This document shows positions 18,943-25,676 of a stretch of DNA of 54,624 nucleotides, one piece after another. The notes beneath the pieces were generated by a model, which saw only the letters and a program-made list of their open reading frames with translations, did not search any database and was not told where the DNA came from. Each line of letters opens with the position of its first letter. The first letter of the stretch is position 1. Source of the DNA: Halobacteriales archaeon QS_5_70_17 (lineage in GTDB: Archaea; Halobacteriota; Halobacteria; Halobacteriales; Haloarculaceae); contig PXRR01000008.1 in the NCBI GenBank assembly GCA_003021975.1, positions 115,753-170,376 of the forward strand, in the 5' to 3' direction. The translations under genes were made by a program, and so were the position numbers.

Positions 18943-18943
<1 letters not shown>
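17183..18943 (+). CDS. atpA: A-type ATP synthase catalytic subunit A
   Basis: A 586-residue catalytic subunit. The P-loop GPFGSGKTV is near residue 238 and Walker B ([20 protein letters not shown]) lies in the 330-350 region. The non-homologous region typical of A subunits lies at 120-200 ([19 protein letters not shown]). The catalytic-site segments [19 protein letters not shown] and [16 protein letters not shown] are intact. No intein is present, and length is standard. It overlaps atpF by 4 nt and shares one base with atpB. Confidence 0.96.
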
Positions 18944-20315
<1,372 letters not shown>

Positions 20316-21049: not shown

Positions 21050-23074
21050 ATGAGCCGATCCCGAGCGGAGCGCCTGCGCGTGCTCGTCGTCGGCACTGAC
21101 TCCGAGCGACGTGCTGAGGTTGCCCGCGCGCTCGACACCGATCGGATCGTCGTCGAGACGGTCCAGCGACCCGACGCCGGCGGCCAGCGACTGGGCGAGG
21201 TGGACTACGACGCCCTCGTCGTCGACCTGACGTCACTGATTGACGGTCTCGATTTTCTGCGGTCGGTCCGGGAATGGTCCGACGTCCCGGTCACCGCGCT
21301 GATCGAAGACGCCCGGGTCGAAGCGGTGTTCGACGCAGGCGCGACTGACTGCGTCCACGTCGCCGGCAGCTCCGACCCGTTCGCCCGTCTGGCGGGTCGC
21401 ATACGCAGTATCGTCGCCTGGCGCGGTCCCGAGGGCGATCGCGCGCGCGCGGCTATCACCCAGGACCTGATGGAGCGGGCGATGGACGCCGCTCCTATCG
21501 GCATCACGGTTTCGGATCCGGACCTCCCCGACAACCCACTGGTCTACGTCAACGACTCCTACGCGGACATGACCGGCTACGAACGCTCGGAGGCGCTAGG
21601 CCGTAACTGTCGGTTCCTCCAGGGACAGGGCAGCGACCCGGAGACCGTCGCCGCGATGCGCGAGGCTGTCGCGACCGACGACCCCGTCTCCGTGGAACTC
21701 GTCAACTACCGGAAGGACGGCACCTCCTTCTGGAATCGGGTCGACATCGCGCCGGTCCGCGACGGGTCGGGCGCGGTCACTCACTTCGTCGGCTTCCAGA
21801 CCGACATCACCGAGCGTAAACGGGCCGAGGCCGAGGCCAAGCGGTACGCCGTCGCCGCCGCCCGGGAGCGCGAGCACCTCCAGCACCTCGTCGACCGGAT
21901 CGAGGGACTGATCAGGGACGTCACGGCGGTTCTGATCCGAGGAGAGAGCCGCCGACAACTCGAGACGGAGGTCTGCGAGCGACTGGTCGAGTCCGGACCG
22001 TATGCCGCTGCTTGGATCGGGGACGTGGACATGGGTGCGGACGTGATCGCCCCGCGGGTCAGAGTCGGGAGCGGGACGGCGGCGCCCCCGGACGAACTGA
22101 TTCTCGACCGGCGCGAAGGGTCGATCGATCCCACCGTCCGCGCGGTGGCGGCCCGGGAGGTCGAGATCGGGCGGGACGACGGCGAAGGGCTCCACCCCGA
22201 CGGACCGGCGTTCCCGGACGCACTCCGATCGGTCGCAGCCGTCCCGCTGGCCCACCGCGAGACGCTGTACGGGGTACTGAACGTCTATGCCGGAACCCCG
22301 GACGCCTTCGACCGAGAGCGGGTCGTCCTGTCGCTGCTGGGACGGTCGGTCGGCGCAGCGATCAGTGCGGTCGAGAGCCGGCGGGTCCTCTTCGGAACCG
22401 CTGTCACTGAACTCGAGATCGGGCTCGAGGACGACACCTTCGTCCCGCTCGCGGCGGCGATCGACGCTCAGATCGCCTACGAGGGGGCCGTTCCGCGGGA
22501 CGGAAGTTCGGTTACCGTCTTTGCGACCGTCACCCCCGACGGCGATCGGGTGTCGGCGGTCGCCGAGGACCTGCCGGGAGTCGAGCGGGCCACCCGGGTC
22601 ACCGTCAGCGAGGACGACGAGGACGCGTCCGGGCTTTACGAGTTCCGCTGCTCGTCGGACTCGTTCGTCACGCGAGTCGTCGACGCCGGCGGGCGGATCC
22701 GCCGGTTCCGGGCCGAGAAGGGGTCTCTGGAACTCCTCGTCGAGACGGCCGACAGATCTACCGCCCGGTCGCTGTTCGCCGGCCTCCGGGAAGCTTTCGA
22801 CGGGGCCGAACTGCTGCGGTCGCGCGACCGCGACCGCCAACCCCGGACTCGCCGGGACCTCCTCGGTGAACTGGAGGACCTGTTGACCGAGCGCCAGCGG
22901 ACCGCGCTGCGAACGGCCTATCTCGCCGGCTACTTCGAGTGGCCCCACGCGGTCTCCGGGGACGAACTGGCCGACGCGATGGGCGTTTCCCGATCGACGT
23001 TCCACCAGCACCTCCGGACCGCCCAGCGGAAGTTCCTGAACGCAGTCTACGAACCGGACGCGGAACCTAACTAG
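21050..23074 (+). CDS. bat: Bacterioopsin transcriptional activator Bat with LOV photosensor domain
   Basis: A 674-residue regulator with four parts. Residues 10-120 form a receiver-like domain. Residues about 140-255 form a PAS/LOV domain with the flavin-adduct motif GRNCRFLQG (Cys187), [12 protein letters not shown] and GFQTDI (Gln250), so the full LOV signature is present. A GAF domain lies at about 280-440. The BAT and HTH_10 DNA-binding region runs from about 460 to the end ([20 protein letters not shown] and [18 protein letters not shown]). Bat of Halobacterium activates bop and related genes under light and low oxygen. Here it lies directly upstream of bop in the same direction, and its stop codon is embedded in the first Bat-box-like site. 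A blue-light-responsive activator is the natural inference. Confidence 0.9.
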
Positions 23075-23079
23075 TTGGG
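23065..23079 (+). promoter_or_regulatory. Bat-box (UAS)-like site 1, perfect match
   Basis: The sequence ACCTAACTAGTTGGG fits the Halobacterium bop upstream activator consensus as I remember it (ACC-NN-ACTAGTT-N-GG) at every specified position. It overlaps the bat stop codon (TAG at 23072-23074). Its start is 41 nt upstream of site 2. Confidence 0.7.
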
Positions 23080-23105
23080 GTGCGAATTCATACGGCCCGG
23101 GAATA

Positions 23106-23120
23106 CCCGAACTAGTGTGG
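23106..23120 (+). promoter_or_regulatory. Bat-box (UAS)-like site 2, TATA-proximal
   Basis: The sequence CCCGAACTAGTGTGG matches 11 of the 13 specified positions of the same remembered consensus. It sits just upstream of the bop TATA-like element, the position the UAS holds in Halobacterium. Confidence 0.65.
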
Positions 23121-23126
23121 GACTCT

Positions 23127-23134
23127 CTTTATTA
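23127..23134 (+). promoter_or_regulatory. TATA-like element of bop
   Basis: The sequence ctttatta is centred 32 nt upstream of the ATG at 23163. This predicts a leader of only a few nucleotides, as reported for bop mRNA. The nearer ATG at 23142 would fall upstream of that transcription start. Confidence 0.6.
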
Positions 23135-23162
23135 CTGTAGGATGAATAATAATAGCCGCGCC

Positions 23163-23897
23163 ATGGCACAACCAGGTTCTGAGTCGATCTGGCTCTGGAT
23201 CGGTACCCTCGGAATGACCCTCGGTACCCTCGTGTTCGTCGCGCGGGGACGCGGGGTACGCGACGAGGAGCAACAGTTGTTCTACATCGTCACCACCTTC
23301 ATCACGACCGTCGCCGCTGCGTCGTACTTCGCGATGGCGACCGGGCTCGGTCTCATCGAGGTGACCGTCGCCGGACAGACCCTCGACATCTACTGGGCGC
23401 GGTACGCCGACTGGCTGATCACGACGCCGCTGTTGTTGTTCGATCTCGCGCTTCTGGCGGGTGCCGACCGGAACACGATCTACACGCTGGTCGGACTGGA
23501 CGTCTTCATGATCCTGACGGGGCTGGCGGGTGCGCTGGCGACCTCGAGTCCCGGCGTCCGCATCGCTTGGTGGGCGATCAGCACTGGTGCGTTGCTGGCC
23601 CTGCTGTACTTCCTCGTGGCGGCACTGTCGGAGTCCGCGAAGCGCCAACCGGAGGACGTGGCGAGCCTCGCGGGGACGCTGCGGAACATGATCATCGTCC
23701 TGTGGCTGGCTTACCCCGTGGTCTGGATCCTCGGGACCGAGGGGACCATCGGCATCCTCCCGCTGTACTGGGAGACGGCCGCGTTCATGGTTCTCGACCT
23801 GACGGCGAAGGTCGGATTCGGACTGGTGTTGCTCCGGAGCCGTAACATCCTCGACGAGGTCAACCGCCCGGCCGCACAGCGCGGTCGGACGGCCTGA
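23163..23897 (+). CDS. bop: Bacteriorhodopsin-type light-driven proton pump
   Basis: A 244-residue seven-helix retinal protein. Starting at [10 protein letters not shown], the key residues are Arg80, Asp83, Thr87 and Asp94 (equivalent to R82, D85, T89 and D96 of Halobacterium BR: motif [10 protein letters not shown] then FDLALL), release-group glutamates Glu193 and Glu204, counter-ion Asp212 and Schiff-base Lys216 ([10 protein letters not shown]). This DTD set with the release glutamates marks an outward proton pump rather than halorhodopsin or a sensory rhodopsin. Two tandem Bat-box-like sites and a TATA element precede it. Genes for making retinal follow directly. An in-frame ATG at 23142 is possible but lies upstream of the predicted transcription start. 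Confidence 0.94.
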
Positions 23898-23942: not shown

Positions 23943-24674
23943 ATGTCTCTGACATATGCTCAGTTTCACGCGCTGTTCGTCGTCCCGCCGGCGACCGGGC
24001 TCTGGTTCGCCGTCCGCCGCCGAAGTACGGCCCGAGATCCGTGGCGACCGCGACCGGCCGCGGTGGCGCTGCTCTCGGTCATCGCGCTCGCCTACACGAC
24101 GCCCTGGGACAACTACCTCATCGAGCAAGGGGTGTGGTGGTACGGCGAGGGGCGCGTAGCGGCGACGCTCTGGCGGGCCCCCGTCGAGGAGTATCTGTTC
24201 ATCGCTCTCCAGCCGGTCGTCGCGGGCCTGTGGATCCATCTCCTCCCGGCGCCGTCGGTGCTCCCGTCGGCACTCCCGGCAGTGTCCCTCCGGTCGCGCG
24301 TCGCGGGAGCCATCGCTGGGCTGACCGTCGGGGCCGCGGGCCTGGGTCTGCTGTCGACCCCGTCGACGTACTACCTGGGCGCTATCGTCGCCTGGAGCGG
24401 GCCGGTGCTGGCACTGCAGTGGGGGGTCGGCTGGCCCGTCATCTGGCGGCTCCGGCGGACCGTCGCCCTCGGCGTCCTCGTCCCCTCGGCGTACCTCTGG
24501 GTCGCCGACGCTATCGCCATCGATCGGGGAGTCTGGATCATCGCAGAGCGGTACACGACGGGGATCGCCGTCGGCGGCCTGCCCGTCGAGGAGGCGGTCT
24601 TCTTCGTCGTGACCAACCTGTTCGTCGTTCAGGGGCTGGTACTGTACGACTGGGTGATCGCCCGATGGGAGTGA
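23943..24674 (+). CDS. crtY: Lycopene beta-cyclase (archaeal/fungal CrtY-type)
   Basis: A 243-residue membrane protein with two homologous lycopene-cyclase domains, which cyclises lycopene to beta-carotene, the precursor of retinal. Each half carries the P-V-E-E signature (APVEEYLFIA near residue 83 and LPVEEAVFFV near residue 218). TTPWDNYLIEQGVWWY (about 52-67) is the conserved region of the first domain. About six to seven membrane helices are evident. The gene starts 46 nt after bop without a visible promoter of its own and overlaps brp by 10 nt, so bop-crtY-brp look like one transcript. Confidence 0.9.
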   Translation: MSLTYAQFHALFVVPPATGLWFAVRRRSTARDPWRPRPAAVALLSVIALAYTTPWDNYLIEQGVWWYGEGRVAATLWRAPVEEYLFIALQPVVAGLWIHLLPAPSVLPSALPAVSLRSRVAGAIAGLTVGAAGLGLLSTPSTYYLGAIVAWSGPVLALQWGVGWPVIWRLRRTVALGVLVPSAYLWVADAIAIDRGVWIIAERYTTGIAVGGLPVEEAVFFVVTNLFVVQGLVLYDWVIARWE

Positions 24675-25676
24675 GCCCCGCTGCCCGGCGACGACCGATC
24701 GCTGGGACGCCAGTCGCCCACCTCGCCCTCCTGCCCGGCTGGATCGCCGCCGGGGGGCTGCTGGTCGTTGCGCTCGCCGACGTGTCGCTCCCGCCGGCGT
24801 ACGGTTACGCGGTGCTGATCGTCGGCGCCGTCCTCTTCGGACTGCCCCACGGGGCCGTCGACTACCTGGTGCCGGCCCGCGCCGCCGGATCGCGTCCGAT
24901 CCGGTCGCTGGTCGCGGTCGGCGGACTCTATCTGGTCTTCGGTGGCGCGTACGCGGCCCTCTGGTTTCTCGCGCCCGCCGTCGCCGCCGTCGGCTTCCTC
25001 GGACTCACGTGGTACCACTGGGGACAGGGGGACCTCCACGCGCTCGTGGCTCTGGCCGGCGCCGATCACCTCCGGACCCGTCGGCGCCGAATCGCGACCG
25101 TCGCCGTCCGGGGTGGTCTGCCGATGGTCGTCCCGCTACTGGCGTTTCCCGATCGCTACCGCGCGGTGGTCGCCTCGTTCGTCGCGCCGTTCGCCGGCTC
25201 CCGGTCTCTCCTCGCCGTCCTGTTCGCGACCGAGGTCCGCCTCGCGCTGGGCGGCGGACTGGCAGCACTGACGGTGGCCGCGCTCGCGGTCGGTCGCGAC
25301 GGGACGGATCCCCGGGGCTGGCGGCTCGAGGCCGCCGAGACGGGCCTCCTGTGGGTGTACTTCGCGGTCGCCCCGCCGGTGCTGGCCGTCGGCGTGTACT
25401 TCTCGCTGTGGCACAGCGTCCGCCACGCCGCCCGGTACGCGCTGCTCGACGGGAACGCTGGCGGGGGCGACGGTCGCCGCGCTCGCACTGCTGGGGGTGC
25501 TGGCGGCACTCGTCCCCGTCCCGCCGGCGAGCACGGACGGGTGGATCGCGCTCTATCTCGTTCTGGTGGCAGTGCTGACGCTCCCTCACGCCGTCGTCGT
25601 GACGTGGCTCGACCGGCGTCAGACCCTCTGGACGCCGCCGCAGCGTGGCCTCCGCACGCGTAACGGCAACAGGTAA
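24665..25676 (+). pseudogene. brp: Brp/Blh-type beta-carotene 15,15'-dioxygenase, frameshifted near the C-terminus
   Basis: This membrane enzyme cleaves beta-carotene to two retinals for bacteriorhodopsin. From the ATG at 24665 the frame gives the family motifs LFGLPHGAVDYLVP, LGLTWYHWGQGDLHAL and YFSLWHSVRHAARYALLD, the His residues being the iron ligands. At about 25450 the frame changes. The expected last helices ([39 protein letters not shown]) continue in another frame to a TAA at 25674-25676. All metal-ligand motifs are upstream of the break. Either a short deletion has destroyed the C-terminal helices or the sequence has an error here. Confidence 0.82.

Follow-up and report, generated by a model that had tools for sequence, protein, structure and literature searches.

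The window, the whole stretch of 54,624 nucleotides analysed here, comes from a fragmented and incomplete assembly (2,606,427 bases in 78 contigs, 73% complete) and holds a bacteriorhodopsin-type opsin gene, bop, linked to the gene of a Bat-type activator with BAT and HTH_10 domains and followed by two genes similar to those of carotenoid and retinal metabolism (Table 1). No second opsin was found in this 73%-complete assembly. The gap between bat and bop measures 88 bp and contains one of two predicted Bat boxes (site 2), while the other (site 1) spans the end of bat. The start codon of bop is probably leaderless.

Table 1. Features of the bat-bop region, with positions counted from the first letter of the window.
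Feature	Position	Strand	Remarks
bat, bacterio-opsin activator	21050..23074	+	ORF; PAS, GAF, BAT and HTH_10 domains; Pfam PF15915, PF13426, PF13185 and PF04967 above cut-off
Site 1, extra upstream predicted Bat box ACCTAACTAGTTGGGG	23065..23080	+	bop ATG-98; matrix score 20.8
TATA-like TTCATAC after site 1	23087..23093	+	offset from site 1 equals offset of the real TATA element from site 2
Site 2, canonical predicted Bat UAS CCCGAACTAGTGTGGG	23106..23121	+	bop ATG-57; matrix score 14.9
TATA-like element TTTATTA of the bop promoter	23128..23134	+	conserved TTWT columns 23-26 bp from box start
bop, bacteriorhodopsin-type proton pump	23163..23897	+	PF01036, E 2e-65; RYADW...FDLALL and DLTAKVG present
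Lycopene cyclase-like gene, 3' of bop	23943..24674	+	PF18916, E 1e-7
brp/blh-like beta-carotene dioxygenase gene, downstream	24674..25663	+	PF15461, E 9e-58; start uncertain

Two further observations concern the genes themselves. Judged from the translations, ATP synthase-like genes lie immediately upstream of bat, and one of them, a B-subunit-like gene at 18943-20315, is broken into two overlapping frames near 19215-19300, probably by a one-base assembly error. The PAS domain of Bat contains GRNCRFLQ (residues 184-191, window positions 21599-21622), which we take to be a LOV flavin-binding signature, so that direct sensing of blue light by Bat is possible.

The sequence ACCTAACTAGTTGGG at 23065-23079 has no mismatch to the pattern ACC-N2-ACTAGTT-N-GG with which the sequence-only reading of this DNA had worked, and CCCGAACTAGTGTGG follows at 23106-23120. 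Because the bat ORF ends at 23074, its TAG stop codon (23072-23074) lies within the core of site 1. That reading had placed two sites 41 bp apart, the first including the bat stop, at a spacing near four helical turns; coordinates and spacing are correct, 41 bp being 3.9 turns at 10.5 bp per turn. Its count of 11 of 13 specified positions for site 2 has to be amended, as the pattern specifies 12 positions, of which 10 agree on the plus strand and 11 on the minus strand (CCCACACTAGTTCGG). Site 1 is a near-perfect 16-bp palindrome and, the box being palindromic, the strand of a match hardly matters.

In the whole assembly the exact 14-mer CCNNACTAGTTNGG has three strand matches at two places, both at the bop promoter, and the reversed control pattern has none. 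A genome scan had been proposed by the sequence-only reading as a check on random occurrence of the motif, and it returned the exact motif at the bop promoter only. Once mismatches are admitted this distinction disappears: when one mismatch is allowed, the genome yields 13 strand matches to the pattern and 37 to its reversed control, and with up to three the window has 18 against 21.4 expected. Loose matches are thus at or below control, and information resides only in near-perfect copies. Within the window ACTAGT occurs solely at sites 1 and 2, and CTAG is itself rare there (18 seen, 48 expected from trimers). We also looked for a box in front of bat through which the activator might regulate its own gene, and discarded the idea when the stretch from 1209 to 22806 gave no match with up to three mismatches.

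The position of such boxes was surveyed in the DNA upstream of opsin genes, which were taken from 33 named loci and from matches in 104 of 146 genomes of the family; for the genomes with a G handle the cut-off was E <= 1e-40 within the family and 1e-50 in 60 genomes of other families. The window, the loci L038 and L039 (duplicates of G079 and G056) and one place without a start codon were excluded before counting, leaving 148 genes. In 97 of the 148, no more than 5 of 14 positions mismatch in a box lying between 49 and 60 bp above the start codon, with positions from ATG-52 to -59. This is a loose cut in an 11-bp interval, under which a few may be chance matches; 55 boxes have no more than 3 mismatches. 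The box begins at -57 in 51 of the 97, which is the mode, and at -58 in another 16. Its canonical form is ACCnAACTAGTTnGGT; an A comes next, and a TATA-like element rich in T then lies at 23-26 bp, counted from where the box starts. Site 2 stands at this conserved distance from both the TATA-like element and the start codon, and since it starts exactly at -57 we identify it as the canonical UAS. The suggestion that two boxes of the activator type share a helical face was supported, but the assumption that the perfect upstream site is the main one was reversed: site 2 occupies the usual place at ATG-57 and site 1 is the addition. Nearly all relatives have one box, and a second strong box was found only here among 98 promoters.

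Several side observations came from the same promoters. The 39-promoter matrix shows a conserved C at +39 (72%) and a conserved A at +42 (91%), counted from the box start; they lie some 15-18 bp before the ATG and are perhaps a promoter-proximal element. In many genomes of the family genus g3 (L115 and L138, for example) the box of the opsin promoter has drifted to forms such as ACCATATATTTTGGGT while remaining at -57, which suggests a changed specificity of Bat in that genus. At L025 (Natrinema ejinorense) the half-box GACTAGTTCC comes straight after a TGA, about 98 bp above the opsin ATG and 49 bp above a weak canonical box. Among 76 non-redundant promoters CTAG clusters 30-60 bp above the canonical box (11 of 18 occurrences between 15 and 250 bp), and seven other palindromic tetramers have no such clustering; this pattern was found post hoc, the CTAG contexts differ and in several cases the tetramer may belong to the stop codon of the preceding gene.

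Scored with a symmetrised matrix of 39 non-redundant boxes, window excluded, the 55 good canonical boxes range from 15.0 to 24.7 (median 18.5). Site 1 outscores 80% of them, and site 2 outscores 41% of all 97 boxes. That site 1 is the strong box and site 2 the weak one agrees with a helper role for site 1. It might be argued instead that the promoters are in tandem, with site 1 driving the TATA-like TTCATAC and a second, leadered bop transcript starting from near 23122. Indeed, TATA-like columns are present at the right offset after site 1 (P 0.006), and an in-frame upstream ATG lies at 23142. Yet when the core promoter is scored as a whole, the profile following site 1 does not surpass random sequence (P 0.22), whereas that following site 2 exceeds all 20,000 random draws, and we consider a tandem promoter quite unlikely.

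The arrangement resembles the bop promoters of Halobacterium salinarum and strain NRC-1, in which bat is likewise next to or near bop and a palindromic ACC-N2-ACTAGTT-N-GG box (in the consensus used by the sequence-only reading) is found directly above an atypical TATA element. It differs in that the account of those strains in PMC1447603 describes, in the part dealing with the promoter, one UAS 5' to bop, whereas here there are two at a distance of 41 bp, the upstream one over the bat stop. A single UAS is the usual feature of this promoter type and not a strictly defining one, and we regard the present bop promoter, with another strong box at -98, as a novel form of that known type.

We propose, with a probability of about 0.58, that site 2 is an ordinary Bat UAS and that site 1 is an auxiliary box of higher affinity which aids the loading of Bat on site 2. 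Site 2 would be the UAS of bop, held at a fixed distance from TATA element and start codon; site 1, 3.9 helical turns upstream on the same face of the DNA, would help Bat to load the TATA-proximal site, much as described for Ptr2 / Ss-LrpB; and the dimer on site 2 would then contact TBP/TFB. The fixed distance of the proximal box is consistent with an activator in contact with the TBP/TFB complex. We infer Bat binding to either site from the HTH_10 domain of bat and its linkage to bop, and the contact between dimers, their cooperativity and the direction of any effect are likewise presumed; binding of Bat to boxes of this kind is stated for other organisms in passages of two reviews (PMC1447603, PMC1885257).

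The archaeal regulators Ptr2 and Ss-LrpB offer the closest parallel for such a division of labour. As described in the relevant part of PMC2995911, they have a constrained dimer site beside the BRE, while extra upstream sites of low or high affinity on one face of the helix help higher-order binding. The proximal constrained site, the auxiliary upstream sites on the same face and the overlap with the regulator's own ORF are shared with the bop locus, where the auxiliary site lies on the helical face of the promoter-proximal one. Protein family and spacing are different, the sites of Ptr2 / Ss-LrpB being two or three helical turns apart in that account and those at bop four. By this analogy the bop promoter works like the tandem auxiliary-site activation of Ptr2 / Ss-LrpB and is not a member of it. 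The gas vesicle promoters controlled by GvpE, as treated in parts of PMC4390858, are similar in having a haloarchaeal activator and a two-part UAS that must be near the BRE: the close distance between UAS and BRE is essential there, and an insertion of 22 bp abolishes activation. They are different in that GvpE is leucine-zipper-like and that its two UAS serve two divergent promoters, whereas both boxes at bop lie above one gene. Because GvpE needs this close distance, a box as far up as -98 is unlikely to work by itself on the TATA element of bop, and aiding the -57 box is the simplest role that the -98 box might have.

Other published work on bop is less favourable to the auxiliary-box reading. 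A classical study reportedly states in its title that the UAS of the haloarchaeal bop promoter lacks enhancer activity, and we count this against our explanation. We do the same with the suggestion that Bat of H. salinarum acts indirectly through Brz, which is made in a passage of PMC2253796. A related alternative is that a different regulator, be it a second HTH_10 protein or a Brz-like factor, occupies one box, and that the pair integrates two signals, in line with passages reporting regulation of H. salinarum bop by both Bat and Brz (PMC3184054, PMC2253796). As both sites fit one matrix and no small ORF with two CxxC motifs, as expected of a Brz-like zinc finger, is present at 13000-35000, we regard this as highly improbable.

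Within the family the pair stands alone. Of the 98 promoters, window included, that of the window is the sole one in which a further box within 250 bp reaches a score of 11; G005 and G002 come nearest, with second boxes of 10.6 and 9.9 at 115 and 118 bp and with poor canonical boxes in both. The other genomes of the family lack the pair, including the two other opsin-bearing genomes of the genus (G053 and G056), and this absence counts against the auxiliary-box reading. Nor is there a general tendency towards a second box at -41: when 234 offsets are ordered by their mean matrix score over 86 non-redundant promoters, offset 41 comes 95th, which marks the pair as rare and not general. When the spacing was left free between 24 and 54 bp, a search for paired ACTAGT-type boxes hit one of 392 Halobacteriales genomes, the source genome, at 41 bp. 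Searches for tandem UAS or Bat boxes in open-licence PMC full text returned no title or abstract on paired Bat boxes.

It could be that site 1 is a functionless leftover or chance box, an older box at the bat stop that was abandoned after DNA was inserted and a new box arose at the right distance from the TATA element. The canonical box of L024 (MAG QS_9_68_17) has the bat stop in its core, and the register agrees with that of site 1, so that relative to bat it is site 1 that matches the L024 box and relative to bop it is site 2; the absence of the pair from the rest of the family would agree with this history as well. A relic should decay, however, and site 1 is the better of the two boxes (20.8 against 14.9); the flanks of the two units are dissimilar at offset 41 (6 and 7 of 25); and the 41-bp spacing is also seen at G358, a genome of another family. 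We therefore think a leftover unlikely. The same flank identities, 6/25 upstream and 7/25 downstream and hence at chance, led us to reject a recent tandem duplication of a 41-bp promoter unit.

The sample of other families comprised 60 genomes, of which 22 had a close opsin (26 genes), and the same opsin search in control genomes found none in 14. At G358 (locus L200), which also has the bat-bop order, boxes begin at ATG -246, -205, -98 and -57 with scores of 15.2, 18.5, 11.3 and 13.8, and form two pairs, each exactly 41 bp apart. Its sister G364 (L223) has boxes at -245 (20.7), -205 (16.2) and -57 (16.4), with the distal pair kept at 40 bp. The box at -97 is weak in G364 (7.0), and this counts against the auxiliary-box reading, as does G372 of the same genus, whose nearer opsin has a single box at -57. 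Six genomes of this genus were covered, four of them with a close opsin (five genes); two more distant opsins, in G372 and G423, have no box. These promoters are like that of the window in the bat-bop order, the canonical box at -57 and pairs 40-41 bp apart, and unlike it in the family they belong to, in having two pairs (four boxes) that reach -246 and in the weak proximal upstream box of G364. Between G358 and G364 identity is 95/99 at the bat end, 52/57 in the core promoter and 12/25 in the distal spacer; 13 and 10 of 16 positions are identical in the distal boxes, yet all four score 15 or more.

A search of the 392 genomes at a fixed spacing of 41 bp, with up to three mismatches, gave four places in three genomes, and the reversed control gave none. 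Three of the places are in front of bop, one in the source genome and two in G358; the fourth, in G380, is AT-rich, lies in or near an unrelated gene without visible link to an opsin, and was taken as chance. A survey of 226 loci, amounting to 918,997 bases with overlaps counted, gave 195 boxes with a score of at least 9; exactly four distinct pairs among them lie less than 73 bp apart, at 40, 41, 41 and 41 bp. With the window's 41 as given and the pairs taken as independent, the probability that both G358 pairs fall at 40-42 by chance in the range 17-72 is about 0.003, a value to be read with the caution that the range was picked post hoc and that the two pairs, being exactly 148 bp apart, may be non-independent. 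At 10.5 bp per turn, none of the spacings of 41, 107, 148 and 189 deviates by more than 0.2 turn from a whole number of turns. As the same spacing is found in an unrelated genus, the pairing is probably functional, and the reading of the window's boxes as a working tandem is strengthened by this recurrence, judged from sequence comparison.

The bat stop lies in or at a box in several of these promoters: in the core of the canonical box at L024, and at the start of the distal box in G358 and G364, which begins at the last base of the stop codon. One might suppose that Bat on site 1, which overlaps the bat stop, is a roadblock to bat transcripts, giving negative feedback or keeping read-through out of bop, as a passage of PMC2995911 proposes for Ptr2, whose ORF overlaps the control region of its target. 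But a box at the bat end is missing in most bat-bop neighbours, and the overlap may simply follow from the short intergenic space; a roadblock seems to us decidedly unlikely. We read the overlaps as boxes that would have arisen in the first non-coding bases after bat.

A bolder extension of the auxiliary-box reading is that activators of the Bat type (HTH_10) form ordered arrays on boxes about four turns apart and act over distances reaching -246 bp. Such an arrangement, resembling an enhancer and tied to the 3' end of the gene that encodes the activator, would have arisen at bop on at least two occasions. We advance this tentatively and hold it to be somewhat doubtful; to our knowledge, there are few accounts of haloarchaeal activators that act at a distance or in cooperative arrays.

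In summary, the occurrence in two families of a natural pair of boxes with a repeated spacing of 40-41 bp provides a clean test of the cooperation of Bat dimers, and the -57 rule makes it easy to locate opsin genes under Bat control, together with their start codons.
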